From Kiritimatiellia bacterium (lineage in GTDB: Bacteria; Verrucomicrobiota; Kiritimatiellia; RFP12; UBA1067): a stretch of 64,000 nt of DNA. The DNA lies in NCBI GenBank assembly GCA_017427485.1, contig JAFRSR010000061.1:1-64000 (forward strand). The letters are read 5' to 3'. Shown here one piece after another: positions 9,246 through 59,976 of the stretch (the stretch's first letter is position 1; every line of letters starts with the position of its first letter). The notes below the pieces were generated by a model. It was given only the letters and a program-made list of their open reading frames with translations. It was not told the origin of the DNA and ran no database searches. Position numbers and translations under genes: made by a program.

Positions 9246-9252
9246 TGTTGAT

Positions 9253-37065: not shown

Positions 37066-37078
37066 AAGGAAAAAGAAA

Positions 37079-37620: not shown

Positions 37621-37639
37621 AACTTAACAAGGAGCAAAC

Positions 37640-39427: not shown

Positions 39428-39454
39428 TTAGTGGAAGGAAAGGAATAGCTTATC

Positions 39455-41410: not shown

Positions 41411-41908
41411 ATGAAGGAAAACCAATCCGTTTTTCCCCATGGGGCATGCCGTTTCGCGGTTGCTGCCGCGCTGTGCGCCGTGACGCTGGGCGCGTTCGCT
41501 GGTCGGGCGTTCTACATTTCACCCACCAGCCAGGGAACGTTGCCGACCGGCTGGAACAAGTGTCCGTTCGTCATCTCGAAAAGTCAGCCCAAGATGTTCA
41601 CGGGGCTGGTCGACAGCGAGGGGAACGCCACCGACGTCAATCTGTTCCTCATGATCCCCGCCACCGCCAACTATGGCAACTCGACCCAGCCATTCACGGG
41701 TGATGCGGCGGAGTTCGAACCGATGCGTGCCGTCGTCAACAATCAGTCCGTCTGCTCCACCGATCCGAAGGTCGCCGCCCTTGGACTCGCGGAGTCTTGC
41801 ATCCGCGCACGGTTCGAGGGACTCGACCCGACGAAGCTCTATGCGTTTACGTTCGCCGCCCGCGCATCAACGGGAACACCAATGAGCTGTCCGCCCGCTA
41901 CACCGTGA
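41411..41908 (+). CDS. Secreted SGNH-hydrolase-like protein, 5' part before a frameshift
   Basis: 165 codons with a signal peptide (FAVAAALCAVTLGAFAG). The sequence follows a repeat pattern, FTGDAAEFEPMR ... LDPTKLYAFTFAARA, that continues in another frame from about 41870, as shown by equivalent repeats further on (LYPNCTYSFTFVASRADNDPTKIYTTKYTVTGANSG). A single-base loss within GCCCGCGCATCAACG near 41865-41872 explains it. The last 13 residues in this frame (STGTPMSCPPATP) are probably not native. See the next entry for the remainder. Confidence 0.7.
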   Translation: MKENQSVFPHGACRFAVAAALCAVTLGAFAGRAFYISPTSQGTLPTGWNKCPFVISKSQPKMFTGLVDSEGNATDVNLFLMIPATANYGNSTQPFTGDAAEFEPMRAVVNNQSVCSTDPKVAALGLAESCIRARFEGLDPTKLYAFTFAARASTGTPMSCPPATP

Positions 41909-44325
41909 ATGGTGCCAACTCCGGCGCGATCGTCATGAACGCCTACAACTGCACGGACCGCGTGGCGCGCCTTCCCGGCATCGCGCCGTTGCCGGACGGG
42001 TCAATCGAGTTCTCCGTCGAGGCGGCGGAATCCAACACGTACTGGAAGCGTTTCGGGTACCTTACCGGCTTGAAGCTGGAGGAAATGGAGGACTTCGGCG
42101 CTGAGGATATCTACATCGACGCCAGGACCGCGCCCGTCTCGCCGTCCTGGACGTGGAACACCGTGCCGATGCAATCAAAAGGCTCCTATAGAGGCCTTTT
42201 GGACCGCAACGGAAACCAGACGCGCGTTGGAATTGATGTGGCGGCGGCGTCGGGTGGCGGGAACGGCAACGCTACGCTTGAACTGACGGGCGATGCGGGC
42301 GAGTTTAAGGACGCCCGCGCGGGCAGCAACGCGCAGGTGTACTTCAACAAGTCGAGCCACGGACGGGCAACCGTCTCAGGTCTCTACCCGAACTGTACTT
42401 ATTCCTTCACGTTCGTCGCCTCGCGGGCGGACAACGACCCGACGAAGATCTACACCACGAAGTACACCGTCACCGGCGCGAACAGCGGCTCCAGCACGCT
42501 GGACGCGCGAAACAACGCGACGAACGTGGCTCGTGTCAGTGGTATCAGTCCAAGCGAGCGTGGAGAGGCGGTCATCGACATCGATCCCGGCGACGACTGC
42601 AACGTCAGCTGGTTCTATATCGCCGCATTTAAGATCTCGCGCGAGACGAAGTTCGCGTCCGACATGCGCGTAATGACGGTCGATGCGACGTCCGGCGGCG
42701 GCGTGTCGGCCACGGTGGACGGCGTGGCGACGAACACAACTTGCTACCTGCCGGCGGACAAGACGCTCGTCGTCACCGCCACGCCGGACGCGGGCTACCG
42801 TTTCGTCGGCTGGACATCCTCCTTCACGAATGCGACCGTGACAACCAATCCGTTCTCCATCTCCGCCGCGCAGTCTGCAACATGGACGGCGGTCTTCGAG
42901 CAGGATTCCGCATATGTGCGCAAGACGGCGTACATCGACGCCCATGACACGCCGGCGAACGACGGGAAGACATGGAACCTCTTCAGCGACGCGAAATATG
43001 GCTGGAATCAGATGCAAGGTCCACTTGTGGCGAGTGACGGTTCAACTTCCGCCGTGGCGCTCCGTACTGTCCTTCCGTTCGGTCTCCGCAGCACGGACAG
43101 CGCCAAACCAGTCAACAACGACGCCACCGCGTCCGGCGTCACCTTCACGGGCGACGCGGCCGAGTTCGAGGCGGCGCGCCGCGGCAACAAAAGCCTGTAC
43201 ATTCAGATCTCCGGTTCGGGTGCAATAAACAATGTCACCAATCGAGGCGTAGTCGCATACGATGTCATCGGCCTGAAGCCGGGTCGTCCATACACCTTCC
43301 GGTTCGCGGCGGCGCGCACCGGCAGCGGCCCGCGCGAGGGCCTGTATCGGGCCATCGGACAGAACCGCGTGACGGCCAGCCTCGAACCGATGGGCAACTC
43401 CACCCAGGTGGCGAAGGTGGCGGACGTGTTGCCGGACGAAAACGGCACGATACGCCTTGAGATGCTGTCCGGCCCGAACAACGCCATCGGCGCGCGGTTT
43501 GTGTACCTGACCGCATTCTCCATCGAAGGCGACCTCTCCGACGCGGGTGGAAGGCACATCCTGTGGTTCGGCAACAGCTTCAGCAACGGCGGCGACATCC
43601 CCAAGAGGGTGGCGAACCTCGCCGAGCTCGCCGGCTACGCGCGGCCCGTGATCGTCAACACTTCGGTGAACGGGCAGAACCTCGCGTACCACATCGGGCA
43701 GGTGATGAACAATCCGTCCGCGAACATCGAGGCGGACGAGATCATGTACCAGTCGTCCGGCAACTGGGACGACGTGGTGATCCAAGGCTACAGCACGGAG
43801 GCGACGAGCGCCTACTCCATACCCCCTGCGGAGGGTTTCATCCCGAACGCCACGAATCTCTACGCGCTCGTGCGCAACTCGGCGAAGGGCGGCGGCGTGC
43901 GTGGCGTCCTGTATCAGACATGGGCACGCGCGACCGGCCACGAGTTCTACCCGGACACCTTTGCTTCGCCAGACGCCATGCAGAACGAGATCGTCCCGAA
44001 CTATGCCCGTGTTGCCGACCTGATACGGACGGAATGGGGGAACGGCGCCGTCGTGACGGCTCCGGTTGGCGCGGCGTTCCGGTACGCGCAGTTCTCGCCG
44101 GACTTCTACTCGGCCGATCTCTACCACGCAGGTGGCAGATACGGCTACGAATTGGTGGCGATGGTGCTGTTCAACGCGATCTACGGTGCGTTCATCGAGG
44201 AGAAGACGACCTACACCGAGGTCTTGGCGGCCGGTGCGACCGAGCTTTCCGAATCCGAGTGGAACCGCCTCGCTCGCTACGCGCATAACGTGTTCACCCA
44301 CGGCTGCACGGTCATCTTCCGCTGA
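41797..44325 (+). CDS. Secreted SGNH-hydrolase-like protein, 3' part after a frameshift
   Basis: The frame is open from 41797, but homology begins near 41870 (INGNTNELSARYTVNGANSG). At least three beta-rich repeats of about 150 residues follow, sharing FTGDAAEFE and YTFRFAAAR-like segments. Between them is an InlB/Flg_new-type repeat (VDGVATNTTCYLPADKTLVVTATPDAGYRFVGWTS). The last 250 residues resemble an SGNH hydrolase (HILWFGNSFSNGGDIPK ... DLYHAGGRYGYELVAMVLFNAIYG), with Ser in GNS and the Asp/His pair in DLYH. It ends HGCTVIFR, one of four proteins with this type of tail. Whether the frameshift is a real mutation, programmed, or a sequencing error cannot be decided here. Confidence 0.75.
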   Translation: MHPRTVRGTRPDEALCVYVRRPRINGNTNELSARYTVNGANSGAIVMNAYNCTDRVARLPGIAPLPDGSIEFSVEAAESNTYWKRFGYLTGLKLEEMEDFGAEDIYIDARTAPVSPSWTWNTVPMQSKGSYRGLLDRNGNQTRVGIDVAAASGGGNGNATLELTGDAGEFKDARAGSNAQVYFNKSSHGRATVSGLYPNCTYSFTFVASRADNDPTKIYTTKYTVTGANSGSSTLDARNNATNVARVSGISPSERGEAVIDIDPGDDCNVSWFYIAAFKISRETKFASDMRVMTVDATSGGGVSATVDGVATNTTCYLPADKTLVVTATPDAGYRFVGWTSSFTNATVTTNPFSISAAQSATWTAVFEQDSAYVRKTAYIDAHDTPANDGKTWNLFSDAKYGWNQMQGPLVASDGSTSAVALRTVLPFGLRSTDSAKPVNNDATASGVTFTGDAAEFEAARRGNKSLYIQISGSGAINNVTNRGVVAYDVIGLKPGRPYTFRFAAARTGSGPREGLYRAIGQNRVTASLEPMGNSTQVAKVADVLPDENGTIRLEMLSGPNNAIGARFVYLTAFSIEGDLSDAGGRHILWFGNSFSNGGDIPKRVANLAELAGYARPVIVNTSVNGQNLAYHIGQVMNNPSANIEADEIMYQSSGNWDDVVIQGYSTEATSAYSIPPAEGFIPNATNLYALVRNSAKGGGVRGVLYQTWARATGHEFYPDTFASPDAMQNEIVPNYARVADLIRTEWGNGAVVTAPVGAAFRYAQFSPDFYSADLYHAGGRYGYELVAMVLFNAIYGAFIEEKTTYTEVLAAGATELSESEWNRLARYAHNVFTHGCTVIFR

Positions 44326-44416
44326 CGAGTCCTTGGAGCGGCGCGGGGCGTGCCGCAAATGTTTTCGCCGCTGTGACGATGGGATGATCCACGGCCACGA
44401 GAAGAAAGACATAATG

Positions 44417-44512
44417 TGTCAGTTATAACTTACACCAATGTGCATTGTTGATATCATGTCGGTTATAACTGACATAATCCACATTCTCGGCTTGCGTGTC
44501 AGTTATAACTTA
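44417..44512. promoter_or_regulatory. Three palindromic operators spaced 40 bp apart
   Basis: The palindrome GTCAGTTATAACTGAC or close variants occur three times, with TTATAA centred between 44425/44426, 44465/44466 and 44505/44506. The outer copies read TGTCAGTTATAACTTA, the middle GTCGGTTATAACTGACAT. The last lies between the -35 and -10 boxes of the downstream ATPase promoter. Confidence 0.75.
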
Positions 44513-44521
44513 TGCTATAAT
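44492..44521 (+). promoter_or_regulatory. Promoter of the AAA ATPase gene
   Basis: TTGCGT at 44492-44497, 18-bp spacer filled by an operator palindrome, TATAAT at 44516-44521. The ATG at 44545 has an ACGGAGGTAG ribosome site. Confidence 0.7.
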
Positions 44522-44544
44522 GCGCGCGGTACGGAGGTAGGCAG

Positions 44545-45801
44545 ATGGTCAACCGAGAGCTTTATCTTAGAAAAGTGCGTCCATTTATTGGAACAGATGT
44601 CGTTAAGGTCATCACCGGGATGCGGCGCAGCGGAAAATCGGTCCTTTTGGAGCTGATTCAGGAAGAATTGCGCGAACGCAATCCTGAGGTTCGGATTTTC
44701 TCGGTCAATCTTGATGATGATGAAAACAAGAGATTCCTCGCGAAGGGCGTTCTTTACGAATATGTAAACAAATTGCTTCAAGAAGCCGGAAACGAGATGG
44801 TCTATCTCTTTCTTGATGAAATCCATGATGTCGAGGAATGGGAAACGGCAGTCAACTCCCTTCGAATGCGCAAGAACGCCGACATCTACATCACGGGCTC
44901 AAACTCAAAGCTTCTTTCCGGGGAACTTGCGACCTACCTTACGGGGCGGTATGTCGAGATCAAGATGACGCCTTTCTCCTTTGCGGAGTTCATTGAAGCC
45001 GCGAAACCGATATTCCCGGAAGAAGACAGAAGCCAGCTCTTCAATCGCTATCTTGTGACGGGCGGGATCCCGTTTCTTGCAAAAGTCCGCTATGACGAGG
45101 AGGCGTCACGCGCCTATCTCCACGATCTTTACGGGGCGATTCTCCTCAAGGACGTGGTGCGGCGCAAGCAGATCCGCGACGTTGACTTGCTGGATCGCGT
45201 CGTTCGTTTCGTCATGACGGAATGCGGGCATACGTTCTCGGCACGGCGGATCGTAAACTTCCTCAAGGGCGAACGGCGCGAGACGTCTGTTGAGACGGTC
45301 CTCAACTACCTCACGGCCTGCGAGGAGGCGTTCTTGATCGCGCGCGTTCCACGTCAGGATCTGGTCGGCAAGCGCATTCTGGCGGTGGACGAGAAATACT
45401 ATGTGACGGATACGGGCCTGCGGAACACGGTCGTCAGGGGGAATTTCCGTCGTGACGTCGACCAGCTTCTGGAGAATGTCGTCTATTTCGAGTTCCTGCG
45501 ACGAGGCTATGATGTCACGATCGGCCGTACGCGCGAGAAAGAGGTCGATTTCGTCTGCGACCGGGGCAACGAACGTCTCTATGTACAGGTCGCGTTCACG
45601 CTCGGATCGGAAGACACACGCGAACGGGAGTACGGCGCGTTGGAGCAGATCAAGACGACCGACGCGAAACTGCTCCTGACGATGGATCGCCTCGACATGA
45701 GCGACGGCACGATTCGTCATTGCTACATTCCCGATTACCTCGTTTCCAACGGCGTCGTCTCGCCGTCGAACTTGTCTGTACAAGGAGAGCGCAAACAATG
45801 A
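44545..45801 (+). CDS. AAA ATPase of the AAA_14/DUF4143 family
   Basis: 418 aa. Walker A GMRRSGKS near residue 26, Walker B YLFLDEIHD near 90 and a sensor ITGSNSKLLSG. A middle winged-helix-like part (RYLVTGGIPFLAKV ... LLKDVVRRKQIRD) leads to the DUF4143 C-terminal domain with nuclease-like EVDFVCDRG...LYVQVAF, where the usual E-x-K is replaced by QVA. Such ATPases occur in many copies in Bacteroidota, archaea and PVC genomes and their role is unsettled; a defence or toxin-like role has been suggested for relatives. Three operators upstream imply tight, probably self-linked repression. Its TGA overlaps the next ATG. Confidence 0.88.
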   Translation: MVNRELYLRKVRPFIGTDVVKVITGMRRSGKSVLLELIQEELRERNPEVRIFSVNLDDDENKRFLAKGVLYEYVNKLLQEAGNEMVYLFLDEIHDVEEWETAVNSLRMRKNADIYITGSNSKLLSGELATYLTGRYVEIKMTPFSFAEFIEAAKPIFPEEDRSQLFNRYLVTGGIPFLAKVRYDEEASRAYLHDLYGAILLKDVVRRKQIRDVDLLDRVVRFVMTECGHTFSARRIVNFLKGERRETSVETVLNYLTACEEAFLIARVPRQDLVGKRILAVDEKYYVTDTGLRNTVVRGNFRRDVDQLLENVVYFEFLRRGYDVTIGRTREKEVDFVCDRGNERLYVQVAFTLGSEDTREREYGALEQIKTTDAKLLLTMDRLDMSDGTIRHCYIPDYLVSNGVVSPSNLSVQGERKQ

Positions 45802-47141
45802 AAAGAATCATGATAGGTATCTGTGCGGCGGTATGCGCCGCGTGGGCGTTCGCCGCCGAGGTGAAGGTGGACTTCGCGACCGAGACCGGCCCCGTCAAGC
45901 CGGTGAACGGCGTGGGGCAGCCGCCGATGCTGGGATTCGGGAACGACCGCCTGTTCCACTATCTCACCGAGGCGGGCATCCCGTTTTCGCGTCTGCACGA
46001 CACGGGCGGGGCCTTCGGCAAGAACGTCTACGTGGACATCCCGAACATCTTCCGCGACTTCGACGCGGACGAAAACGACCCGAAGAACTACGACTTCGCG
46101 TTCACGGACGACCTCATGGCCAAGCTCGACAAGGCCGGCGTGCGGCCGTACTTCCGCCTCGGCGTGACGATCGAGAACGGCGCCGCCCGTCGGGCCTACC
46201 GCATCTTTCCACCGAAGGACTACGCGAAGTGGGCGCGCATCTGCGAGCACGTGATGGCGCATTACGTGGAGGGCTGGGCCAACGGGCCGCGCGTGAAGGT
46301 CTCGCACTGGGAAATCTGGAACGAGGCCGACTTCCATCCCCAGGAGAAGCTCAACCAGATGTGGCAGGGGCCGTTCGAGGAGTTCATCCGCCTCTACATC
46401 ACGGCGGCCTCGCACCTGAAGGCGCGCTTCCCGCAGGAGAAGATCGGCGGCTTCGGGAGCTGCGGGTTCTACCACGCGGCCACGGGCGACACGCGCGACC
46501 AGGCCATCCACCACATGAAGTGCATCGAGGCGTTCTTCTCCGCCGTGAAACGCGCGCATGCGCCGCTCGACTTCTTCTCGTACCACAGCTACGCGGGCGT
46601 GGAGGCCACGATGAAGCACGCGCGCGTCGCCCGCGAATATGCAGACAAGTACGGCTTCGCGGGGATCGAGCTTTCGCTCAACGAATGGCTGCCGAATCCG
46701 CGACACGAGAAGCTCGGCTCGGCGCAGCAGGCGGCCGAGATCGCGGCCGAGATGATCGGCTTCCAGAACGGCCCCGTCGATTCCGCGTGCATCTACGATG
46801 CGCGGTGCGGCATCGGCAACTACTCGCCGCTCTTCAACGTGCTCACCTACAAGCCGCACAAGGCGTACTGGGCGTTCATGGCGTTCAACGAGCTGCGCAA
46901 GGCGGGGACGGCCGTCAAGGCGACTTCAGGCGATCCGCATGTATGGGCGGCCGCCGCGAAGGGGACCGCCGGCCGCGTCGTGATGGTCGCGAACGACAGC
47001 GACAGGGAGATTCCGCTCGCCCTCGACCTCGGCGGCGGCGTGCCGTCCGCCTGCCGCATCGTGGACGACACGCGCACGTGGGAGAACATCCCGCTCCCCG
47101 CCGCGCTTCCGCCGTATTCCATCCTCCTCGTCAGCCTGTGA
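45798..47141 (+). CDS. Secreted GH39-like glycoside hydrolase
   Basis: 447 aa from ATG 45798, overlapping the ATPase stop (ATGA). Signal peptide GICAAVCAAWAFA. A (beta/alpha)8 barrel of clan GH-A: the acid/base Glu176 is in SHWEIWNEADF and the nucleophile Glu296 in ELSLNEWLP, with a short C-terminal beta domain ending PYSILLVSL. GH39 members are beta-xylosidases or alpha-iduronidases; related clan families cannot be excluded. The overlap suggests translational coupling to the ATPase, which is odd functionally and may be an accident of insertion. Confidence 0.8.
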   Translation: MKRIMIGICAAVCAAWAFAAEVKVDFATETGPVKPVNGVGQPPMLGFGNDRLFHYLTEAGIPFSRLHDTGGAFGKNVYVDIPNIFRDFDADENDPKNYDFAFTDDLMAKLDKAGVRPYFRLGVTIENGAARRAYRIFPPKDYAKWARICEHVMAHYVEGWANGPRVKVSHWEIWNEADFHPQEKLNQMWQGPFEEFIRLYITAASHLKARFPQEKIGGFGSCGFYHAATGDTRDQAIHHMKCIEAFFSAVKRAHAPLDFFSYHSYAGVEATMKHARVAREYADKYGFAGIELSLNEWLPNPRHEKLGSAQQAAEIAAEMIGFQNGPVDSACIYDARCGIGNYSPLFNVLTYKPHKAYWAFMAFNELRKAGTAVKATSGDPHVWAAAAKGTAGRVVMVANDSDREIPLALDLGGGVPSACRIVDDTRTWENIPLPAALPPYSILLVSL

Positions 47142-47188
47142 TCTACAGGGGATACGGGAGTGTGATATACCCCCAAGTCATTTTGCCG

Positions 47189-47218
47189 TGGACATTCCGC
47201 AGGGTGGTGTGTTATACT
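47189..47218 (+). promoter_or_regulatory. Duplicated promoter, copy 1 (leaderless)
   Basis: TGGACA at 47189-47194, 18-bp spacer, TATACT at 47213-47218, then nine bases to ATG 47228. No Shine-Dalgarno is present. The whole 60-bp block, from CATTTTGCCGTGGACATTCCG on, is repeated at 54389-54437. Confidence 0.7.
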
Positions 47219-47227
47219 CCCGGCACA

Positions 47228-50089
47228 ATGAAAACAAGAAAGACACTGTCAGCCTGGTGCGCGGTGGCGCTTTGCCTGACGGCCGTAACGGCAGTCGGCG
47301 CGGAGCGGACGTTGAGCGCGGACGGCACGACGCTGACGTTCGACGTCCCCGCCGACGTCGTGTACACGAACACCGTGCCCATCGAGACGACCGTGACGAA
47401 CATCGTCAAGATCGGCGGCGGCGAGGCGTGCTTCGTGCCGCAGACGAACAACGTCTACACGGGCGGCATCCTGATCCGCGAAGGCTTCCTCTCCGGCCTC
47501 CAGCGCTCCTTCGGCAAGCCCGCGGCCATCACGGTCGAGAGCGACCCCGCGACCGGCGTGGGCGGCGCGATCGTGTTCCTCGACCTCCTCCCGGGAAATC
47601 TCACCACCACGCAGTCCCCGTTCTGGAACACGAAGTGGCACGTCTCCGGCGCCGGCCCCGACGGCACGGGGGCGATCCAGCGTCCCGTCACGCACTGCGA
47701 CCACGTCGTCAACGGCCTCATGAAGGAGATCTGGCTGGACGGCGACACCACGATCAACTGCGGCTCGCGGTGGGGGTTCGCGAGCACGACGCTGTACATG
47801 AACAACCACAAGCTGACGCTGACCGCATCGCGCACCACGTGGCCCGGCAGCGCCACCAAGCACATGGACGCTTACTCGCGCATTTTCCAATTCGCGCGGG
47901 GCGGAAATCTGGCAATCAAAGATCCGGGCGAGGTGTTCGTGACGGGGAACTGCCGCTTGTTGATAGAAGCCGGCAGCAAGGTAACCGACGCGGCCGGATC
48001 GAACGGCAGCGTCTCGAACATGCTGGTGACGATCAACACCAACTGCCAGCTGCGCATCTTTTCCCAGGGCGAATCGGCCGCGCCGACGTTCCGCACGCAT
48101 TTTCTCCACAACAGCGCGTTTAACGTGAACGGCGGCGGGCACTACAAGGGCCGCATCACGCTCGAGGGACCGACGTTCACGCTTGAAAAGTACAGCGACA
48201 ACTCGCACGGCTATCTCTACGGCGGGGTGACGGGACCGGCCCGCATGAAGCATGAGAACTTTGCCCATTACGATTTTCTCGACAGCGGCACGAACTACGT
48301 GAACGGCATCCTGCAGACGAGCGCCGGCGCGTTGAACTTTCGCAACAACACGACGTTCTACGTGACGAACGCGTTTTTCATCGGGCGGAGTTCCCTGTCC
48401 GAGCCGGCAGTGGTGAACGTGACCGGCAACGCGCGGCTCCCCACCTGCGCCGGCATGCGCGTGAATACCGCGGATCGGCGGCTGTACGTGGGACCGTCGA
48501 GCGCCACCGACGTGTCGAGTTACGGCATCCTGCGCATCGGCGACAACGCCGTGGTGTCGAACCAGGTCATGATCGGCTTCTACGGGCGCGGCGCGGTCTA
48601 CCTCTCGGGGAACGGCGAGCTCGACTTCTGCGACGGCTACTCGAACAACAACGGCTTCATCACCGGCAACCAGAGCACGAGCGGCACGCGCGCGTACGGC
48701 TACCTGGGGATGCGGGGCGGAATCGCCCGTCAGGACTTGTGGTTCAACATCGGCGGCGGCGGCAACACGCGCGCGTTCGTGGTGCAGCGCGGCGGCCGCT
48801 TCGAGCACAACGGCTACGGCGAACCCGTCCGCTTCGGCTTCAGCGGATGGAGCCACAACGCCTACGCCCAGCTGGGCGGAACGTCCACGTGGAAGAACTA
48901 CGCCGCGCTTGGCTTCGCCAACTATACGCCCATTTGCGCGAACACCGTCGGGTCGCTCACCGTCGCGGGCGAGGGGACGCTGATGGACATGTCGCCGTCC
49001 ATCGGTTCGACGTTCCCTGGCATCCTCTGCAACGCGAACACGAACGCCACCGCGGCGAACTCGGCCAACATCAACGTGAACGACGGCGGCACGCTGTACG
49101 TGCCGCGGATCCGCCGCGGGCAGATCACGGGAGGCGGGCAGTCCCCGGCGTGGGCGTCGATCACGAACCTCATCGCGGCCGGCTCGCAGTACTACCTCAA
49201 CTTCAACGGCGGCATCCTCAAGACGGCGCAGGCGGGCGAGTTCTTCGGCTCCTCTGCCACCGACTCGATCCGCGAGCTCACGCGCGTGACCGTCTACGAG
49301 AAGGGCGCGACGATCGACACGGACGGTAAGGACGTCACCTGGCGCATGGCGATCGAGAAACCGTACGGCCTCGGCATCCAGTCCGTCCAGCTGCCCGCCG
49401 AGGTGCTGGCCACGACGGCGACGAACATCTTCATCGGGCCGACGCGTCCGGGAGTGGACGGCCTTTCCAAGCACGGCCGCACGACGGACCTGCTGCTCGA
49501 CTTCGACGACGTGACGCGCCGCGTGACGAACGTGATCGTGAACGCGCGCGGGTTCGGCTTCACGTCGGCGCCCGCCGTCCTGTTCGAGAAGGGCGAAGTG
49601 AACGGGACATGGTGGACCTGCACGCCCACGATGGTGGACTTCGACGACCCCTCCTTCGCGCACGGCGGCCTCACGAAGCGCGGCGCGGGCACGCTCACGC
49701 TCACGCGCGCCAACACCTACGGCGGCGCGACGCGCCTGGAGGGCGGCACGCTCGCGTTCACGCACGCGGACGGCCTGCCGGGCGGCGCGGTGGAGTTCCC
49801 CGCGGCGGCGTTGATGGCGTCGAACGGCACCACGCCGCTTCTCACGGCGGTGCGCTACACGGGCGGCGCGTTGCGCGTCACGGAGGCGGATGCGCTCGAC
49901 GTCGAGACGTGGCGTGGCATGAAGAAGGTCGCCACGTTCGACCAGCCGCTCGCGGCCCTGCCGTCCGTGGCGTTCGTGAACGCGGATGGCACGGCGGCGG
50001 ATCCGCAGGCCTGGGTGTTCAACCTCGCCGACGGCGGAAAGTCGATCACGTTCGGCTACGCGCGCGGCACGGTCCTCTTCTTGAGATAG
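47228..50089 (+). CDS. Secreted autotransporter-associated beta-strand repeat protein
   Basis: 953 aa from ATG 47228. Signal peptide LSAWCAVALCLTAVTAVGA. The long body is beta-helix-like, Gly/Asn/Thr-rich, with few charged helices. Near residues 815-850 sits a canonical PATR unit (FAHGGLTKRGAGTLTLTRANTYGGATRLEGGTLAF), the repeat found in large secreted proteins of PVC bacteria and in autotransporters. No beta-barrel domain is present, so it is not a classic type V protein. It ends ARGTVLFLR at the stop codon, part of the shared tail pattern. Role unknown; adhesion or substrate binding are guesses. The open frame extends upstream over the GH39 gene but that part is a shadow. Confidence 0.8.
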   Translation: MKTRKTLSAWCAVALCLTAVTAVGAERTLSADGTTLTFDVPADVVYTNTVPIETTVTNIVKIGGGEACFVPQTNNVYTGGILIREGFLSGLQRSFGKPAAITVESDPATGVGGAIVFLDLLPGNLTTTQSPFWNTKWHVSGAGPDGTGAIQRPVTHCDHVVNGLMKEIWLDGDTTINCGSRWGFASTTLYMNNHKLTLTASRTTWPGSATKHMDAYSRIFQFARGGNLAIKDPGEVFVTGNCRLLIEAGSKVTDAAGSNGSVSNMLVTINTNCQLRIFSQGESAAPTFRTHFLHNSAFNVNGGGHYKGRITLEGPTFTLEKYSDNSHGYLYGGVTGPARMKHENFAHYDFLDSGTNYVNGILQTSAGALNFRNNTTFYVTNAFFIGRSSLSEPAVVNVTGNARLPTCAGMRVNTADRRLYVGPSSATDVSSYGILRIGDNAVVSNQVMIGFYGRGAVYLSGNGELDFCDGYSNNNGFITGNQSTSGTRAYGYLGMRGGIARQDLWFNIGGGGNTRAFVVQRGGRFEHNGYGEPVRFGFSGWSHNAYAQLGGTSTWKNYAALGFANYTPICANTVGSLTVAGEGTLMDMSPSIGSTFPGILCNANTNATAANSANINVNDGGTLYVPRIRRGQITGGGQSPAWASITNLIAAGSQYYLNFNGGILKTAQAGEFFGSSATDSIRELTRVTVYEKGATIDTDGKDVTWRMAIEKPYGLGIQSVQLPAEVLATTATNIFIGPTRPGVDGLSKHGRTTDLLLDFDDVTRRVTNVIVNARGFGFTSAPAVLFEKGEVNGTWWTCTPTMVDFDDPSFAHGGLTKRGAGTLTLTRANTYGGATRLEGGTLAFTHADGLPGGAVEFPAAALMASNGTTPLLTAVRYTGGALRVTEADALDVETWRGMKKVATFDQPLAALPSVAFVNADGTAADPQAWVFNLADGGKSITFGYARGTVLFLR

Positions 50090-50121
50090 TGCTCTCGGCT
50101 TAAACAGAAAGGATAAACAGA

Positions 50122-51984
50122 ATGAGACAGTTTACATGGCTTTGGACGATGGGCGCAGCGGCGCTTTGCCTGGCGGTGACCGCGTATGGCGACGTCTACG
50201 ACGACGCCATCTTCTGGTTCCGGGGCGGCACGAACGTGACGGCGAACGGACGCACCGCCGTCAAGGGCGACCTCTTCGACTCGATCCACGCCAACGATCC
50301 CTCGCACAAGAACCATACGGCATCGATCTGGGGCTATGAGGACTGCCGCGTTCTGCGCTACGAGGACGTGCAGTTCCCCTGCAACCGCGACGACCGCAAG
50401 TCCGTGCCGGTGCTGCATCTCTCATGCAAGACGAACACGGCCGTCGTGGGCGGCGTGACCACGAACATGCTGTTCATGCCGGCGGCGGACGCGAGTTTCC
50501 TCAATGGGCAGATCACGAACGTCTATACGATGGTGGCGCGCCTGCGCTACAATCTGGGCGTCACCACGAACAGCAACGCATGGCTGGCGCGTCTCGGATA
50601 CGGCGGCAAAACCGGAGGAATCCTCTTTGGTTTCATGCATGAGTCTGGCATCACCGACAACATCCATCCGGCCATCTACTGCCCTGGCACCAACACGTCG
50701 GCACACACCTCGCAGCTGAACGAATTCCGGTTCAGGAACCTGCGGATCCCGACGAACGGCTGGTTCGACGTGAGCTTGGTGGTGTCGGGCGGCGTCGTTC
50801 GCGTCGGAATCGCCCGTCCCACGACCATGTACTCGCGAAACGTCATCGAATTCCAGACTATTACCGGCACTAATCTGCCTGACGGCGACAAGTTGTCCCG
50901 TCCTTCGACGACTGCGAGCAGCTGGCGTTTCTTCTGCGAGAACGCAAACACCGGTTACGTCGAGCAGCCTTGGGGAGCTGCCACGAGGACGTCATTCCTG
51001 GGAAGCGTGCAGCAGATCGCGATCTGGAAGCGGGCGTTGTCGGACGACGAGGTGCACAAGGCGTGGGGCTGGCCCCACGAGAAGGTGTTCAAGGTCGGCC
51101 TTGAGAACGGCGCCTCGAACGAGTTCGGTTCCAATGTCGCGCCCGCTGCGCAGACGATCAACGCCTACGGTCCGCTGGGCGAGAAGTCGCCCAACATCCC
51201 GCCGGGCGGCACGTGGACCGTGACGTTCTTCGGCGCGACGAACGAGGTGGGCCTCGCGCAGCTCCTGACGCTCACGGCCACGGCCGGCTCCGCCGTCGGC
51301 ACGATCTCCGCCTCGGTGAACGGGACGAGCGTGGGTTCGCAGACCATTCAGCCAGGGCGGACGGCCACCTGGTACGTGCCGGGTACGGCGTTCAAGAAGG
51401 GGCCGAACAACACGCTCACGCTCACGCGCACGGGCGGCAGCGGGAATGTCGTCGTGGATTCATTGTCCATTGGCGGCTCGTGGCAGATCGGCATAGAGGG
51501 GCAGGACTGGAGCGACATGTCGAGTGAGGGTTACGTGCCGAGAGCCCCCGTTACCTCGACCTTCGACATTTCGCGCAAGCACTGGGCACAGGCGGCGAAT
51601 CCCAATGGGTGGACGTCGAACCGGACGTTCCGTGTCTGGCTTCCGGAAAACGTGGCGGCGAACTACCCGATGGAATTTGACCTCCGTTCGGCCTATTATT
51701 TCAACGGTTCGTCGCCGACCAACTACTTCATGGAGGTGTTCGTCAACGGACAGTTGCGCAATGCCATTCGCGATGACACCGGTGTCGTCTCGAACCGCGT
51801 CTCCATCACACCCTCCCACAAGCTCTACCGCATTCCCTTCGAGCCGGGCGAGCTGCGGGCAGGCTGGAACGAGATTCTGCTTCACGGCCACGCGCGGCCG
51901 ACGGGCGGCTACTTCATGTTCGACTACTACCGCTTCCAGCTGACGGGCAACCGCAAGAACGGCACAATGCTCATCGTCCGCTGA
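50122..51984 (+). CDS. Secreted LamG-like protein with C-terminal beta domains
   Basis: 620 aa, AAGGATAAAC upstream. Signal peptide WLWTMGAAALCLAVTAYG. Residues about 30-330 are a concanavalin-A-like lectin/glucanase (LamG) fold: DDAIFWFRGG, YTMVARLRY, NGWFDVSLVV, FLGSVQQIAIWKRALSDDEVHKAW. Residues about 340-620 form one or two jelly rolls resembling the CBM-like and GBD domains of rhamnogalacturonan lyases (FRVWLPENVAANYPMEFDLRSAYYF ... FEPGELRAGWNEILLHGHARPTGGYFMFDYYRFQ). No catalytic site is identifiable. It ends NGTMLIVR. Follows the beta-strand repeat gene by 32 bp and precedes GH3 by 24 bp, so probably one transcript. Confidence 0.75.
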   Translation: MRQFTWLWTMGAAALCLAVTAYGDVYDDAIFWFRGGTNVTANGRTAVKGDLFDSIHANDPSHKNHTASIWGYEDCRVLRYEDVQFPCNRDDRKSVPVLHLSCKTNTAVVGGVTTNMLFMPAADASFLNGQITNVYTMVARLRYNLGVTTNSNAWLARLGYGGKTGGILFGFMHESGITDNIHPAIYCPGTNTSAHTSQLNEFRFRNLRIPTNGWFDVSLVVSGGVVRVGIARPTTMYSRNVIEFQTITGTNLPDGDKLSRPSTTASSWRFFCENANTGYVEQPWGAATRTSFLGSVQQIAIWKRALSDDEVHKAWGWPHEKVFKVGLENGASNEFGSNVAPAAQTINAYGPLGEKSPNIPPGGTWTVTFFGATNEVGLAQLLTLTATAGSAVGTISASVNGTSVGSQTIQPGRTATWYVPGTAFKKGPNNTLTLTRTGGSGNVVVDSLSIGGSWQIGIEGQDWSDMSSEGYVPRAPVTSTFDISRKHWAQAANPNGWTSNRTFRVWLPENVAANYPMEFDLRSAYYFNGSSPTNYFMEVFVNGQLRNAIRDDTGVVSNRVSITPSHKLYRIPFEPGELRAGWNEILLHGHARPTGGYFMFDYYRFQLTGNRKNGTMLIVR

Positions 51985-52008
51985 CCGCGCTCGTTTCGAG
52001 AATTTGCC

Positions 52009-54372: not shown

Positions 54373-54398
54373 AGAACCTGTGTGCCACCATTTTGCCG

Positions 54399-54428
54399 TG
54401 GACATTCCGGAGGGGGGCGTGGTATACT
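54399..54428 (+). promoter_or_regulatory. Duplicated promoter, copy 2 (leaderless)
   Basis: TGGACA at 54399-54404, 18-bp spacer, TATACT at 54423-54428, nine bases, ATG 54438. It matches copy 1 at 47189-47218 in both boxes and spacing, and most of the surrounding block. No Shine-Dalgarno. Confidence 0.7.
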
Positions 54429-54437
54429 TCCGGCGAA

Positions 54438-55619
54438 ATGAAAACACGAAAGATACTGTCAGCGATGGCCGTGGCGCTTGGCGCGACGGCGATGTTCGGC
54501 GCCGCGCAGGCAAGCGGCGGTTCGGGTTCCTACGACGTGGCCGCGTTCGTCTGGCCGGCCTACCACCCCGAGCCGAGGTGGGCGGAGCTGGGGATCTTCA
54601 AGGCGGGCAAGGGCGAATGGCAGAACGTGTGGGAGGCCGTCCCGAAATGGGAAGGGCACCGCCAGCCGCTCAAACCTCTCTGGGGGTACGAGAACGAAGC
54701 CGATCCGAAGGTCGCGGCCAAGAAGATCGACGCGGCGGTTGCGCACGGGGTCAACGTGTTCATCTATGACTGGTACTGGTACGGCGGGCATCCGTTCCTC
54801 GAGGACGCGCTCGACAAGGGATTCCTGGGCGCGCCGAACAACGGGAAGATGAAGTTCTTCATCATGTGGGCGAACCATGACGTAAACAATGGCTGGGACA
54901 ACACCGTTGCGGAAAAGAGCTACACGGACTTCATCTGGCGCGGTACGGTGTCTATGGACGAGTTCCGCGCGCTCGTGTCGCGCTGGATAAACCTCTACTT
55001 CAAACGACCGAACTACTATCGCATCCAGGGGAAGCCCGTGCTGATGGTCTACGACGTCCCCAACTTCGTCAAGGGCCTCGGCGGCGTGGAGAACGCGGCG
55101 GAGGCCGTCAGGTACCTCCGCACGGCCTGCGCCGACGCCGGGCTGGGCGGCGCGCACTTCATGGCGTGCGACTACGGCCTCAAGCCGAACGTGGCGAAGG
55201 CGGTCGGGATTGATTCGGCGACGATCTACAATCTCGTCCACTGGGCGAGTCCGAAGGGCAACCCCGACTACGCCGTCTGGGCGAAGGCAGCCGCGAGGCG
55301 CTTCGACGTCGCCTTGAACGAACTGAAGCCCGCCGCCTTCTTCGCCCATGCGTCGGTTGGCTGGGACCAGAATCCCCGCTACCCGCCCGGAAAGGCCGTG
55401 CCGACGGTCCTCAATTCGACGCCCGCCAAGTTCGAGGTCGCGCTTCGTCGGGCGAAGGACTGGACCGACCGCAATGTGCCGCCTGGCCTGCCGAAGCTCG
55501 TCACAATCAATTCGTGGAACGAGTGGACGGAAGGCTCGTACCTTGAACCCGACCAGCACTTCGGCTTCGGGTACCTGGAGGCAATCCGCCGGGTATTCCT
55601 TCCTGAAACCACCAAATAA
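54438..55619 (+). CDS. Secreted GH99-like (WbsX-type) glycan-active protein
   Basis: 393 aa from ATG 54438; signal peptide ILSAMAVALGATAMFGAAQA, nearly identical at its start to that of the 47228 protein (MKTRKxLSA). A barrel of the WbsX/GH99-like type: VAAFVWPAYHPEPRW at the start, HGVNVFIYDWYWYGG, GKPVLMVYD and the C-terminal NSWNEWTEGSYLEPD, which is the family hallmark. GH99 enzymes are endo-alpha-mannosidases; WbsX relatives are often annotated as glycosyltransferase-associated. With GH92 upstream, mannan or N-glycan work is plausible. Confidence 0.87.
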   Translation: MKTRKILSAMAVALGATAMFGAAQASGGSGSYDVAAFVWPAYHPEPRWAELGIFKAGKGEWQNVWEAVPKWEGHRQPLKPLWGYENEADPKVAAKKIDAAVAHGVNVFIYDWYWYGGHPFLEDALDKGFLGAPNNGKMKFFIMWANHDVNNGWDNTVAEKSYTDFIWRGTVSMDEFRALVSRWINLYFKRPNYYRIQGKPVLMVYDVPNFVKGLGGVENAAEAVRYLRTACADAGLGGAHFMACDYGLKPNVAKAVGIDSATIYNLVHWASPKGNPDYAVWAKAAARRFDVALNELKPAAFFAHASVGWDQNPRYPPGKAVPTVLNSTPAKFEVALRRAKDWTDRNVPPGLPKLVTINSWNEWTEGSYLEPDQHFGFGYLEAIRRVFLPETTK

Positions 55620-55629
55620 TTTTAAGATT

Positions 55630-55655
55630 ATATTTGGCCCCAAGTGCCAAAATAT
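55630..55655. promoter_or_regulatory. Inverted repeat upstream of the second AAA ATPase
   Basis: ATATTTGGC (55630-55638) and GCCAAAATAT (55646-55655) are near-perfect reverse complements. A plausible TTGGCC-N18-TAACAT promoter (55634-55663) overlaps it. Likely a repressor site, in line with the operators upstream of the ATPase at 44545, although the sequence differs. Confidence 0.45.
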
Positions 55656-55691
55656 GATAACATAGGGCCATGTTGAAAAGGAGAAATCAGG

Positions 55692-57119
55692 ATGGTCGGT
55701 AGGCTTAAGGAGACAGCTTCTTTAAAGGAAGCTGCAGAAAAAAACCATGCGCAGTTGATTGCGGTATACGGCCGTCGCCGTGTCGGCAAAACGTTTCTTG
55801 TCCGCGAGACGTTTTCGGATGTTTTTTTCTTTCAGCATACCGGCATACACGACGTACCCATGTCGGGACAGCTTGCAGCGTTCCGTGACTCGCTCCTTGA
55901 GGCTGGCGCTCGGAACGTGCCTGAACTGGCGGACTGGCGCGAGGCGTTCAACGAACTCAAGCGATTTGTTAAGGCAGGTGGTAGCGGGAAGAAAATACTG
56001 TTCATCGACGAGATACCGTGGATGGACACTCCGAAATCACGTTTTGTGCAGTGGTTCGAGGCGTTCTGGAACGGCTGGGCCTCGGCGCGCAAGGATATTG
56101 TCCTTGTCGTGTGCGGATCTGCGGCATCATGGCTGGTGAAAAAGTTCTTCCGTAGTCGCGGTGGCCTCTATGACCGGGTTGCGGAGCGGATACACCTTCA
56201 GCCGTTTACTCTCCATGAGTGTCGGGAGTACTGTCGTAGCGAAGGCTTGAGTTTTTCCGATCTTGACATTGCGGAGCTGTATATGGTTTTTGGTGGTGTC
56301 CCGTACTACTGGAGCATGCTCAAGAGAGGGGAAAGTGTGGCGCAATGTCTGGACAGACTTCTCTTCTCGCGCGAGGGAAAGCTCAGGAACGAATTCCGCG
56401 ACGTGTTCGGGTCTTTGTTCGGGGAAAGCGCGTCATACGAGACGATCGTGAGGGCCTTGGCGTCCGTGAAGAGCGGCATTTCGCGCGATGCGCTTCTAGG
56501 TGCGTGCGGAATGGTTAAGGGCGGAAACGCAACGCGCTACCTCTCGGATCTAGAGGCCTGCGGATTTATCAGGAAGTTTACGGCATTCGGGAGACGAACG
56601 AGAGACTCGCTTTACCAGCTGATCGACAACTTCTCGCTCTTTCACTTGAAGTTTGTTGATGGCGAGTCGAATCCCGATGAGCAGTTCTGGCAGCACTCCG
56701 CCAATCAACCATCCGTCAACGCCTGGCGCGGTCTCGCGTTTGAACGGATATGTCTTCAGCATATCGCGCAGATTAAGGAAGCGATCGGTGTAGGGGGAGT
56801 ACTGACGCGCGTCTTCGCCTGGCGCCACGCGCCAGACGAGAACTGTCCAGAAGGGGCGCAGATTGACCTGCTGATTGAGCGTGCGGACAGGGTGGTCAAC
56901 GTATGCGAGATCAAGTTCACGCAGAAACCGTATCTCATCACGAAGGAATACAATGAGCGGTTGTACCGAAAGGTCGCCGTGTTCGCGTCAGCAACGAAGA
57001 CCCGTCTCGCGCCGCACCTCACGATGATCACGACCTACGGAATCTCGCGGAGCGGATACCTTGGCGCCGTACAGTCCGAGGTCACGCTCGCAGACCTGTT
57101 CCGCGACGTCAGGCGGTAA
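55692..57119 (+). CDS. Archaeal-type AAA ATPase with C-terminal nuclease-like domain
   Basis: 475 aa, AAAAGGAGAAATC upstream. Walker A AVYGRRRVGKTFLVRE near residue 28, Walker B ILFIDEIPWMD near 100, sensor VVCGSAASWLVKKFF, then RIHLQPFTLHECREY and a winged-helix region. The C-terminus has QIDLLIERADRVVNVCEIKFT, an intact D...E-x-K PD-(D/E)xK nuclease signature (DUF234-like). It is of the ArchATPase type and only distantly related to the 44545 protein. Function of the family is unknown. Lower GC than the surrounding genes, which suggests independent acquisition. Confidence 0.87.
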   Translation: MVGRLKETASLKEAAEKNHAQLIAVYGRRRVGKTFLVRETFSDVFFFQHTGIHDVPMSGQLAAFRDSLLEAGARNVPELADWREAFNELKRFVKAGGSGKKILFIDEIPWMDTPKSRFVQWFEAFWNGWASARKDIVLVVCGSAASWLVKKFFRSRGGLYDRVAERIHLQPFTLHECREYCRSEGLSFSDLDIAELYMVFGGVPYYWSMLKRGESVAQCLDRLLFSREGKLRNEFRDVFGSLFGESASYETIVRALASVKSGISRDALLGACGMVKGGNATRYLSDLEACGFIRKFTAFGRRTRDSLYQLIDNFSLFHLKFVDGESNPDEQFWQHSANQPSVNAWRGLAFERICLQHIAQIKEAIGVGGVLTRVFAWRHAPDENCPEGAQIDLLIERADRVVNVCEIKFTQKPYLITKEYNERLYRKVAVFASATKTRLAPHLTMITTYGISRSGYLGAVQSEVTLADLFRDVRR

Positions 57120-57124
57120 TAGGA

Positions 57125-57221
57125 GTAGGGTCCGCGCCACCCTACGGGAACGGCCGTGCTTGTTATGATGGTATTGGGAGCCGCCATCTTGGCGGCTCAC
57201 TGCGATAACAGGCATCTTGCC
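57125..57221. repeat. Cluster of palindromes
   Basis: GTAGGGT/ACCCTAC (57125-57131 with 57139-57145), GAGCCGCCA/TGGCGGCTC (57178-57198) and GGCA-TCT-TGCC (57211-57221). The first resembles the GTAGGG lead-in of the family in the 21-24 kb region. No gene is present between 57120 and 57351. Confidence 0.5.
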
Positions 57222-57246
57222 CGTTCTCCTTGTTTCTCGTCTATCC

Positions 57247-57275
57247 TTCCAAAAAGGGCAGGATTGTGGTATGAT
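57247..57275 (+). promoter_or_regulatory. Promoter of the second beta-strand repeat protein
   Basis: TTCCAA at 57247-57252, 17-bp spacer, TATGAT at 57270-57275. A GC-rich hairpin, GCGCGCCGC/GCGGTGCGCGC (57309-57333), stands just before the AGAAGG ribosome site of the gene at 57352. Confidence 0.45.
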
Positions 57276-57351
57276 ATCCACACATACGATTGCAACTAGG
57301 TGAAGTCTGCGCGCCGCGCAAGCGGTGCGCGCCGAGAAGAAGGCGAACAGG

Positions 57352-59976
57352 ATGAAGAGAGAAACGTTGGTGAAAGGCGTTAGCGCCACATATTGCTGGA
57401 TGGCTTTGATGGCTGGATTTATCTGTCTGTCCGTTGAAGCATACGAAACGGCGATTACCGACACGACCGGCTACGTCGTGCTGAGCGCCACGGACAATCC
57501 AGGCATATCCTCTCTCATCAACGGGAACAACTTCCCCGGCGGCGCGCCGGTGGCGGGAAAGGACTATCTTGTCAATGCCGCACGGACGATCCGCACGCCG
57601 GAAAGCGGCAGTCCGTTCACGTTCAAGGGCGATTCGCTGACGCTCGACGGCGGCGCCTCGCTTGCGCTGAAGTGTCCGGGCAGCACGACGACGATCAGCG
57701 ACCTGCGCATCTACAACGCGCGCATCGGCCAGGCCGACGGAAACTGCTACAAGACGCTGGCCGGGAACCTGACGGTGTTCGGTACGCCCGCTGCGCCGTC
57801 CCTCCTCGAAGGTTCGGGCGACAACGGCAACCGCATTCTCGACATCACGGCCAAGATCAACGGTGCGAGCGGCACCTGTCTGCAGGCCGCGCACACTGCC
57901 GCCGCGGACAAGAACGGCTGCGAGTTCATTGTCCGCCCCCGCTCCAACAACAGCAGCACGTTCATGGGTACGTTCGAGGTCGTGGGGAACAACGTCAACG
58001 CGGCCGTGCCGGACATGAGTTACTTCGGCTCGTCCTGCTCGGTGACCCTGCGCAACGGCGGCGGTCTGCTGGGGTATGGCTCAACCGGGATGACCGTCAA
58101 CGGGAAGACGGTCATAGTGGAGAACGGCGGCCGTATGGGATCCTTCGACAAGAACGGCACGGCGATCACGTTCACCGGTGGCTCGACCATATCGGGCACG
58201 GGCACGCTGCTCATCCGCAACTCGACGGTCGGCGGGACATGGAAAGGCCCGATCGCCATGAACGACGTGACGGTCTCGGGGCTCGACGGCATTGTCGTCA
58301 CGAACAACGCCGCGCTCGTGGTCGGCGGCGGCTACAGGGGCGCGGCCATCCCCATCGTCGTGAGGTCCGGCGGCACGTTGCGCGGGGACGGCGCGGGGCA
58401 GACGGGCGCGGTCACGCTCGAAGATGGCGCCACGCTGGCCTTCACGCCGTCGTCCGGCGCGCTCGTCATCAACGGCGCGCTTGCCACGACGGCTGCTGAC
58501 GGCAAGATACACGTCGACATCGCGTCGCAGGACGTCACCACGCTGGCGGCGACCAATGCCTACCGTCTCATGACGTCGACGAACCTCGGCGCGGCGGGCG
58601 CGACGTTGTCCGACTTCGTCCTGACGGCGAACGCGGCGGCGGCTCCTGTCCGAGAGGTGGCCACGAACGGCACGCTCTCCATCGAGGTGGAGAACGGCAC
58701 GAACTACCTTCTCTACACGTTGCCGCGGAAGATCGTGTACTTTCAGGGAACCGATGCCGGGGGAACCGGCACCGGAGGATCTTCCTTCCAGACGACGGGG
58801 CGCTGGAGTGACAAGACGCTTCCGCACGCCGACGCAGATTATTTCGTCGTCAACGGATCGACGCTCCGCGCGCTGGACGGATCTACGGCGACCTTCAACG
58901 GCCATTCGCTGTCCGTCCTGTCCGGCGGCGCGTTCTTCGTTCAGGGGGCGACGGTGACGGTGGGAGACCTGCGGCTCTACGGCGGTTCGTATGTCAGCGC
59001 GACGCGTCCAAAGAACAACGCCGTCGCCGGCAACATTTCCGTCCACGGGTCGGCCAGCGATCCCGCCTATTTCCGGATCGAGGTGAACAAAGGGCCAAGC
59101 GAACCGACCCGCCCTCTGACTCTTCAGGCGCCCGTTTCCGGCAGCGGCTCCATGCGTTTCATCTACGCGCCCGGACACGTCAACGACGCCTACACGCCAG
59201 ACCCGGCCTATCCCGGCCTCTTCAACATGCGCGGCGACAACGCGGGCTTCACGGGCGAATGGCAGCTCTGGCACTTCGCGATCCAGGGGACGTTCACGAG
59301 CGCGGCAAACGTCGGCTCGGCCTCGGCGATCGTGTTCAACAGCAACGCGGTGTTCCGCGCGCAGGGCGCCTCGTTCGCGATTCCCGCCGCCACGCGCATC
59401 GTCGTGGACACCAAGGGGAGCAACTCGGCGAACACGCTCCAGACCAACGGCGGCTCGTTCCTCGTCGACGACGGCCAGACGCTGACCGTCAACGGCCCGG
59501 TGTCCGGCGCGGGCATCCTGCGCAAGATCGGGGCGGGGACGCTGCGCCTCACGGCGGCGGCCAACGCGTTCTCGGGCACGGCGTCTTCGCAGGCCGGCAC
59601 GATGCTGGTGGACGGCGCGCTGACGAACGCGGCGGCCAACGCGAAGTCCGGCGCGTTCATTGGCGGCGTCGGCAAGGTCAAGACGCTGACGATTGAGGAC
59701 GGCGCGGGTCTCGCGGTTGCGGCCGCCCAGGCGACGCCGCTTGAGGCCGGGACGCTGACGGTCAACGGTGCCGTGACGGTGCGCCTCGACTCCGCGTCCG
59801 ACTTCAGCGGCGGGCGGGTGGCGCTCGTGAAGGTCGGGACGCTCTCCGGCACGCTCACAAAGGCGAACAAGGCCACGATCTGCGTGGGCGGCCAGATGAT
59901 CGCCAACGGATCCCTCTCGCTCTCCAACGGCATCCTCTATGCCCTGCGGGGCGGTACGACGGTCCTTGTCAGGTGA
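57352..59976 (+). CDS. Secreted autotransporter-associated beta-strand repeat protein
   Basis: 874 aa from ATG 57352; the upstream in-frame start at 57325 would spoil the signal peptide (YCWMALMAGFICLSVEA). Two related halves are visible: each begins with a recurring SLTLDGG/SLSVLSGGAFFVQG and LRIYNARIG/LRLYGGSYV, then a segment with PAAPSLLEG/SDPAYFRIE. Later PATR-type strands appear (GAGILRKIGAGTLRLTAAANAFSGTASSQAGTMLVDG near 720-755). It has no catalytic motif and no barrel domain and ends GGTTVLVR. Probably a surface or secreted structural protein, as for the one at 47228, with which it shares style but little sequence. Confidence 0.78.
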   Translation: MKRETLVKGVSATYCWMALMAGFICLSVEAYETAITDTTGYVVLSATDNPGISSLINGNNFPGGAPVAGKDYLVNAARTIRTPESGSPFTFKGDSLTLDGGASLALKCPGSTTTISDLRIYNARIGQADGNCYKTLAGNLTVFGTPAAPSLLEGSGDNGNRILDITAKINGASGTCLQAAHTAAADKNGCEFIVRPRSNNSSTFMGTFEVVGNNVNAAVPDMSYFGSSCSVTLRNGGGLLGYGSTGMTVNGKTVIVENGGRMGSFDKNGTAITFTGGSTISGTGTLLIRNSTVGGTWKGPIAMNDVTVSGLDGIVVTNNAALVVGGGYRGAAIPIVVRSGGTLRGDGAGQTGAVTLEDGATLAFTPSSGALVINGALATTAADGKIHVDIASQDVTTLAATNAYRLMTSTNLGAAGATLSDFVLTANAAAAPVREVATNGTLSIEVENGTNYLLYTLPRKIVYFQGTDAGGTGTGGSSFQTTGRWSDKTLPHADADYFVVNGSTLRALDGSTATFNGHSLSVLSGGAFFVQGATVTVGDLRLYGGSYVSATRPKNNAVAGNISVHGSASDPAYFRIEVNKGPSEPTRPLTLQAPVSGSGSMRFIYAPGHVNDAYTPDPAYPGLFNMRGDNAGFTGEWQLWHFAIQGTFTSAANVGSASAIVFNSNAVFRAQGASFAIPAATRIVVDTKGSNSANTLQTNGGSFLVDDGQTLTVNGPVSGAGILRKIGAGTLRLTAAANAFSGTASSQAGTMLVDGALTNAAANAKSGAFIGGVGKVKTLTIEDGAGLAVAAAQATPLEAGTLTVNGAVTVRLDSASDFSGGRVALVKVGTLSGTLTKANKATICVGGQMIANGSLSLSNGILYALRGGTTVLVR

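Follow-up and report, generated by a model that had tools for sequence, protein, structure and literature searches.

Four window genes share a C-terminal end

The window, meaning the whole 64,000-nucleotide stretch of DNA analysed, carries four forward-strand genes whose products end in closely similar peptides. The first (41411..44325) is a frameshifted gene encoding a DUF4886 domain of the SGNH type and an InlB B-repeat (Pfam PF16227 and PF18998); its end, read in the gene's second frame, is ...HGCTVIFR*, which places the tag GCTVIFR-stop at 44302..44325. The second (47228..50089) encodes a beta-strand repeat PATR protein with a signal peptide (PF12951/TIGR02601) that ends ...RGTVLFLR* (GTVLFLR-stop, 50066..50089). 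The third (50122..51984) combines a signal peptide, a LamG-like region (PF13385, a weak match below cut-off) and a carbohydrate-binding-like C-terminal domain (PF14683), and ends ...NGTMLIVR* (GTMLIVR-stop, 51961..51984). The fourth (57352..59976) is a PATR-like protein with a signal peptide (PF12951 below cut-off) that ends ...GGTTVLVR* (GTTVLVR-stop, 59953..59976). Genes 2, 3 and 4 each occupy one single frame and show a signal peptide by eye.

A sequence-only reading of this DNA had described the four ends as a shared octapeptide. All four are present in the sequence and they do have an end in common, but the conserved unit is seven residues, G-T/C-h-h-h-h-R (h, hydrophobic), and the first residue of the octapeptide varies. 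The basic residue said to precede each octapeptide is found in two of the four proteins (the preceding residues are T, A, K and R). Nor is 41411-44325 a single open frame: its signal-peptide part lies at 41411-41908 and the remainder in a different frame, with stops between, so that in the assembly no open frame holds both signal peptide and tag. The statement that the glycoside hydrolases of the window lack the tag was borne out, as the other window ORFs listed, including those named as glycoside hydrolases, end differently.

Elsewhere in the data, pattern match L027 (contig C220) also terminates a short fragment, which seems to be off-frame; this and the split gene at 41411-44325 may reflect assembly errors or real decay. 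Genes that by eye resemble AAA ATPases lie between the tagged genes (44545-45801 and 55692-57119), and AAA ATPase-like families, again recognised by eye, are repeatedly found beside other tagged genes of the host. Directly upstream of the tagged cluster, at 36586-41272, are genes that by eye resemble subunits of an NADH-linked [FeFe]-hydrogenase.

The heptapeptide is an exact C-terminal motif

The window's genome (6.3 Mb in 446 contigs, 90% complete, 7% contamination) was searched with a DNA pattern for G-T-four hydrophobics-R-stop, GGNACNNTNVTNNTNNTNCGNTRR, whose last codon also admits TGG. It gave 46 matches compared with 0 for the reversed pattern, which excludes chance genome-wide. True stop codons (TGA, TAG, TAA) end all 46 matches, and at 28 of the 30 host loci read the match terminates an open frame 266 or more codons long. 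The 46 matches are all distinct in DNA and encode 35 different peptides, and the 3' flanks of 30 compared loci have a mean identity of 26%, with at least one near-identical pair; distinct matches with dissimilar flanks point to selection or conservation at the protein level. On the same two grounds, we rejected the tag as a repeated DNA element.

Spelling and placement were assessed in a protein sample drawn from the window and 60 further stretches (40 picked for holding matches and 20 from contigs C1-C21 except C15), together 866 kb with 480 predicted proteins that have a stop according to our own gene caller. The exact end G[TC][ILMVFTA]hhhR occurs on 55 of the 480. All 55 strict matches terminate in R, and the same motif closed by any of the other 19 residues was absent from the 480 proteins. 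Likewise, there were no cases of the motif placed 1-8 residues before the C-terminus, and there was one internal occurrence in 237,923 residues. Looser spelling raised the number of tagged proteins in the sample to 67; in 66 of these ends (one short fragment was omitted from the residue table), G stands at -7 in 64, T at -6 in 55, I at -3 in 42 and F at -2 in 36, and the terminal residue is R in 64 and K in 2. Two residues before the G, at -9, proline is commonest (24 of 66). The 20 stretches that were not picked for tags (201 kb) yielded one tag-like end, GTLLYIR, and zero strict ones, so the tag density of the picked stretches is inflated and is not that of the genome.

Tagged proteins mostly have predicted signal peptides and differ in their C-terminal domains

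Signal peptides were called by a strict home-made rule in proteins with assessable N-termini. The rule was satisfied by 40 of 50 tagged and 124 of 370 untagged proteins (p 5e-10), and among proteins of at least 500 residues by 38 of 47 tagged and 60 of 114 untagged (p 0.0008); a looser rule gave 44 of 50 and 182 of 381. Seven of the ten tagged misses of the strict rule show a signal peptide by eye. The three tagged genes without one, in L062, in L067 and the window's frameshifted gene, resemble fragments lacking the start region. The sequence-only reading had raised the possibility that the pattern is as frequent on cytoplasmic proteins, and these counts argue instead for its enrichment on signal-peptide proteins. 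Conversely, 60 of the 106 large signal-peptide proteins of the sample have no tag.

When the 120 residues upstream of the tag were compared, the 67 proteins fell into 30 groups (BLAST single linkage, E 0.01). Full-length comparison placed 50 of them in one group, with 13 groups in total (E 0.001), and the carriers are thus partly one repeat-rich superfamily, though their C-terminal regions differ. Domain scanning with NCBIfam and Pfam covered the last 600 or fewer residues of 65 tagged proteins, two short fragments being excluded. It found PATR in 14, Laminin_G_3 in 9, the T5SS/PEP-CTERM-associated repeat in 2, and choice-of-anchor Q, DUF4886 and a beta-arabinobiosidase model in 1 each, the last indicating that an enzyme-like protein can carry the tag. 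At the thresholds used, none of the 65 carriers matched a sorting-signal model in these libraries, and no library model covers the tag itself. At the level of predicted proteins, these results demonstrate that large, mostly beta-rich proteins with putative Sec signal peptides have G-[T/M/C]-h-h-h-h-[R, rarely K] as their exact terminus.

Outer-membrane proteins also end in a C-terminal strand-like peptide, the beta-signal, whose C-terminal aromatic residue closes the beta-barrel. The G-x-x-x-x-F spacing of porin C-termini equals that of the tag, and with F at -2 in 36 of 66 ends and a strand-like hydrophobic character, the tag could be a beta-signal with an extra Arg, read by BamA or another Omp85 protein. 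We regard this as quite unlikely. The tag ends in Arg (R 64, K 2 of 66) and not in an aromatic residue, zero strict tags end in F, and no barrel family was listed among the 65 carriers scanned. Furthermore, a BamA-type barrel recognised by eye in the same genome (L065 11299-13668) ends ...FSIGYDF, with a terminal aromatic residue.

The tag is retained in homologues of the 50122 protein

Homologues of the protein encoded at 50122 occur in 34 of 115 genomes of the order. We read 30 homologue loci, one of which is the query, two of which run off, and 27 of which have an end. Apart from the query, each of the 27 intact ends is still tag-like, even at about 23% identity. Loss from close orthologues, which the sequence-only reading had held out as a possible finding for the four proteins, is therefore not what we observe for this one of the four. 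The 27 ends are mostly short and hydrophobic and occupy the corresponding position; their last residue is R or K in 20 and Q, Y, N or H in 7, and position -7 is G in 23 and A or P in the other four. The closest homologue (75% identity) ends GTMLIIR where the query has GTMLIVR. Named relatives of this protein come from metagenome-assembled genomes, several of them labelled as rumen and gut Kiritimatiellae or Verrucomicrobia, and the window's own organism probably belongs with these.

In several of these homologues a proline run (PPP to PPPPPP) joins the conserved ...FDYxRFE region to the tag, and in an alignment of 17 sequences the linker is variable in length and the tag glycine invariant. The AlphaFold model of the 50122 protein is poor (mean pLDDT 49); residues 607-620, which include the tag, score below 50 and lie past the last long strand, in weak agreement with a tag positioned outside the fold.

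Capping a solenoid and binding a PDZ domain are both possible roles of a hydrophobic C-terminus, and the tag might accordingly serve as a structural cap or mark its carrier for degradation by a PDZ protease. Both the variable and sometimes proline-rich linkers and the exactness of the Arg-stop speak against such a role, as do the signal-peptide bias and the presence of one tag on carbohydrate-binding, DUF4886, LamG and choice-of-anchor proteins. We judge it very improbable.

The tag is concentrated in the Kiritimatiellae

The DNA pattern was counted in 288 genomes of the phylum, the counts including a few TGG endings. In the window's own family, f1, 11 of 14 genomes have a match and the richest have 46, 35, 10 and 9. 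Families f3 and f4 of the same order reach 9 and 8, and other families of the class are also matched, foremost f15 (G110, 25 matches). Tagged gene ends were verified by reading in G110, G259, G201, G192, G230 and G195, and also in G216, G145, G212, G183, G203 and G253. In G192, two of the five matches are identical ends in the same place on two contigs and may be one gene. Pattern hits off called gene ends (G118, G093, G157, G189, G174, G098) were not counted as tags, and hits in G285 (3 stretches), G133 and one G192 stretch, where few or no genes were called, were not counted as verified. Outside the class, 24 matches compared with 18 for the backward pattern represent the background level.

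Family f2, also of the same order, has 0 matches in 10 genomes; genes of f2 genome G062 were called with a seeded codon model. Two f2 proteins (L202 14561-17407, and L288) end PAKPGFRLLLR and PAPGYRLMLR, for which the backward control gave 0 in 425 kb. This family, otherwise rich in PEP-CTERM, may, judging from these two ends, use a variant spelling of the tag. In L184, L187, L192, L137 and L274, the body of the tag is kept and a terminal Y, N, E or Q replaces R (GTLIRVY, GSVLLLN, GTLLIIE, GTLIKIQ), which suggests that the last residue may be read lineage-specifically.

The tag and PEP-CTERM

PEP-CTERM proteins, sorted by exosortase (EpsH, XrtA), resemble the tagged proteins in that a short C-terminal signal is borne by many diverse signal-peptide proteins of a diderm and occupies the same place on PATR proteins. 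PEP-CTERM hits per genome number 7-33 in the eight f2 genomes searched, 115 in G015 and 102 in G023, compared with 0-10 in the 16 genomes with at least two tags; the 33 genomes without a tag match span 0 to 115, with low counts in many. Across 51 genomes, tag and PEP-CTERM counts are anticorrelated (rho -0.41, p 0.003, not corrected for phylogeny). The host genome has 10 PEP-CTERM hits, one of which on inspection is a full-length signal on a short protein, VPEPSSGLLLLIGGAMLALRRRR; our own scan of the 480-protein host sample found none.

PATR protein ends were collected from 27 mostly tag-poor genomes, where 11 of 30 loci have an intact end in the longest frame. All five intact ends from f6 and f8, two sister families that use PEP-CTERM (G007, G015 twice, G020 and G157), carry PEP-CTERM. 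The PATR end in G139 is HPGTLIKIQ. Family f2 contributes five ends: that of G017 is tag-like, and the other four resemble neither signal, one of them apparently having been read in the wrong frame. For choice-of-anchor Q proteins, 16 of 30 loci are intact: four are tag-like (G000, G110, G192 and G139), none has PEP-CTERM and 12 have neither, so that the argument from anchor position is carried by a few PATR proteins. Comparison of these ends suggests that the tag occupies the position of a sorting signal in relatives, most clearly, if in few cases, for PATR.

These observations raise the question of whether the tag is a shortened PEP-CTERM signal, in which P-x-G-T, a hydrophobic run and Arg derive from PEPGT, helix and RRR and are still processed by exosortase. 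Exosortase was found in 49 of 50 class genomes, among them tagged genomes, such as G192 and G110, in which PEP-CTERM hits number 0 or 1; one tagged end of 67 has PEP directly before the tag (QPEPGMTLIVR), and the proline preference at -9 noted above is in the same direction. However, exosortase is equally present in untagged genomes and so does not discriminate, and ordinary PEP-CTERM persists in the host genome, both signals thus being found in one genome. The proline register is also unlike (P-x-G-T rather than PEP-G-T). PEP-CTERM has a near-invariant Pro-Glu-Pro motif, together with a strongly hydrophobic 14-residue stretch (a transmembrane helix) and a basic cluster (PMC1569441). By contrast, the tag usually has no PEP motif, has a single Arg in place of the basic cluster and has no transmembrane helix, and four hydrophobic residues could not span a membrane. 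Descent from PEP-CTERM with continued exosortase processing is, in our view, unlikely.

Candidate partner families do not track the tag

None of five candidate partner families (SprA, exosortase, C25, FadL and GspD) tracks the tag. SprA/Sov was matched in 0 of 107 class genomes by family search, and the control genomes gave no match either. Peptidase C25 (the gingipain/PorU family) is found in 25 of 50 genomes, with no match in tagged G107, G136, G195 and G282. The FadL/PorV-type barrel is found in 35 of 50; the tag-rich G110 and the tagged G230 and G209 gave no match. GspD-type secretins have some match in 50 of 50 genomes and one above cut-off in 31. By eye, no partner (membrane protein or protease) was recognised beside tagged genes in the host's 40 largest neighbour clusters, which were inspected as unannotated heads, or beside the rare tags of other genomes. 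Thus the co-occurring processing enzyme that the sequence-only reading had looked forward to was not identified among the families searched, exosortase and C25 included, or in the neighbourhoods viewed by eye.

These searches bear on a possible type IX origin, in which the tag would be a reduced signal equivalent to the last motif of the T9SS C-terminal domain. Type IX domains (types A, B and C) are like the tag in sorting Sec substrates by their C-terminus without a membrane helix, and they end, as the tag does, in a hydrophobic strand and a basic residue at the very C-terminus. Motif E of the domain is reported to regulate the interaction with PorV, and the same source describes the domain as conserved, confined to Bacteroidota and made up of several motifs within roughly the last 100 residues (PMC10202324). 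The tag, in contrast, is about 7 residues long and has no common upstream domain, as the 30 BLAST groups illustrate. The restriction to Bacteroidota and the lack of SprA/Sov matches, weakened as the latter is by the equally unmatched controls, count against a type IX origin. So do the absence of the T9SS sorting domain from all 65 carriers in NCBIfam and Pfam and of a FadL/PorV-type barrel match from tag-rich G110. We consider such an origin highly improbable.

A candidate C-terminal sorting signal

The tag has the general traits of C-terminal sorting signals: enrichment on signal-peptide proteins, attachment to different C-terminal domains and placement at the extreme C-terminus. GlyGly-CTERM, the substrate signal of rhombosortase, consists of a signature motif, a transmembrane helix and a basic tail. 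MYXO-CTERM combines a motif with a transmembrane helix and an arginine-rich tail, and is the target of an intramembrane protease, myxosortase (PMC11980579). Both are lineage-wide C-terminal tags on dozens of surface proteins, as the heptapeptide would be, yet they differ from it in having a helix and, for MYXO-CTERM, an arginine-rich cluster, and LPXTG likewise has a transmembrane helix that the heptapeptide lacks. In short, the tag resembles a C-terminal sorting signal and lacks defining features of each known one compared. The sequence-only reading, which had proposed a C-terminal export or anchoring signal on exported proteins, distinct from LPXTG, PEP-CTERM and canonical type IX, gains support on both points, from the signal-peptide enrichment and the retention in 50122 homologues on the one hand and from the missing helix and T9SS domain on the other; these results do not distinguish export from anchoring. 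Searches of open-access PMC papers turned up no description of such a tag.

Drawing on these comparisons of predicted proteins, we think it likely that the heptapeptide is a carrier-family-independent C-terminal sorting signal of the Kiritimatiellae ('GT-CTERM'), without a transmembrane helix, which operates beside exosortase/PEP-CTERM and presumably delivers its carriers to the surface. Carriers would first be exported by Sec. In the periplasm, a putative receptor would then capture the free C-terminal peptide, probably by beta-strand addition and with specific recognition of the terminal Arg/carboxylate, and route the carrier through or onto the outer membrane. Such a mechanism would constitute a second route of surface display, to which adhesin-like and carbohydrate-binding-like proteins have largely passed, leaving exosortase to handle a few short PEP-CTERM proteins. 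Two things lead us to favour strand addition and surface display: the carriers are proteins with adhesin-like repeats or with lectin and carbohydrate-binding domains, and the tag exchanges with PEP-CTERM. There is perhaps an even chance that this amounts to a separate surface-sorting pathway of the Kiritimatiellae, one that reads a free-ended, helix-less heptapeptide with its own receptor, differs from sortases, intramembrane sorting proteases and type IX secretion, and has replaced PEP-CTERM as the chief path taken by large surface proteins.

If correct, this reading would mean that many surface proteins of a lineage from gut and rumen, represented in our data solely by metagenome-assembled genomes, share one uniform label. 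Co-occurrence with the tag could then point to a new sorting machine, just as EpsH/exosortase was traced through PEP-CTERM (PMC1569441). A short signal that has neither helix nor folded domain would in addition be a compact tag for protein display on diderm cells.

Two further observations concern unusual genes. At L047 ~9200-9436, and also in L030, a 78-residue protein with a signal peptide by eye ends in the tag (...TSIGTLIMFR) with little between; the gene may have lost its interior, or the protein may be a genuine mini-substrate. Several class genomes (for example G216:C118, G285:C81, G059:C32, G139:C34 and G177:C14) have, beside an ordinary exosortase, frames of ~1,350-1,400 aa that contain an exosortase domain and may be fusion proteins.
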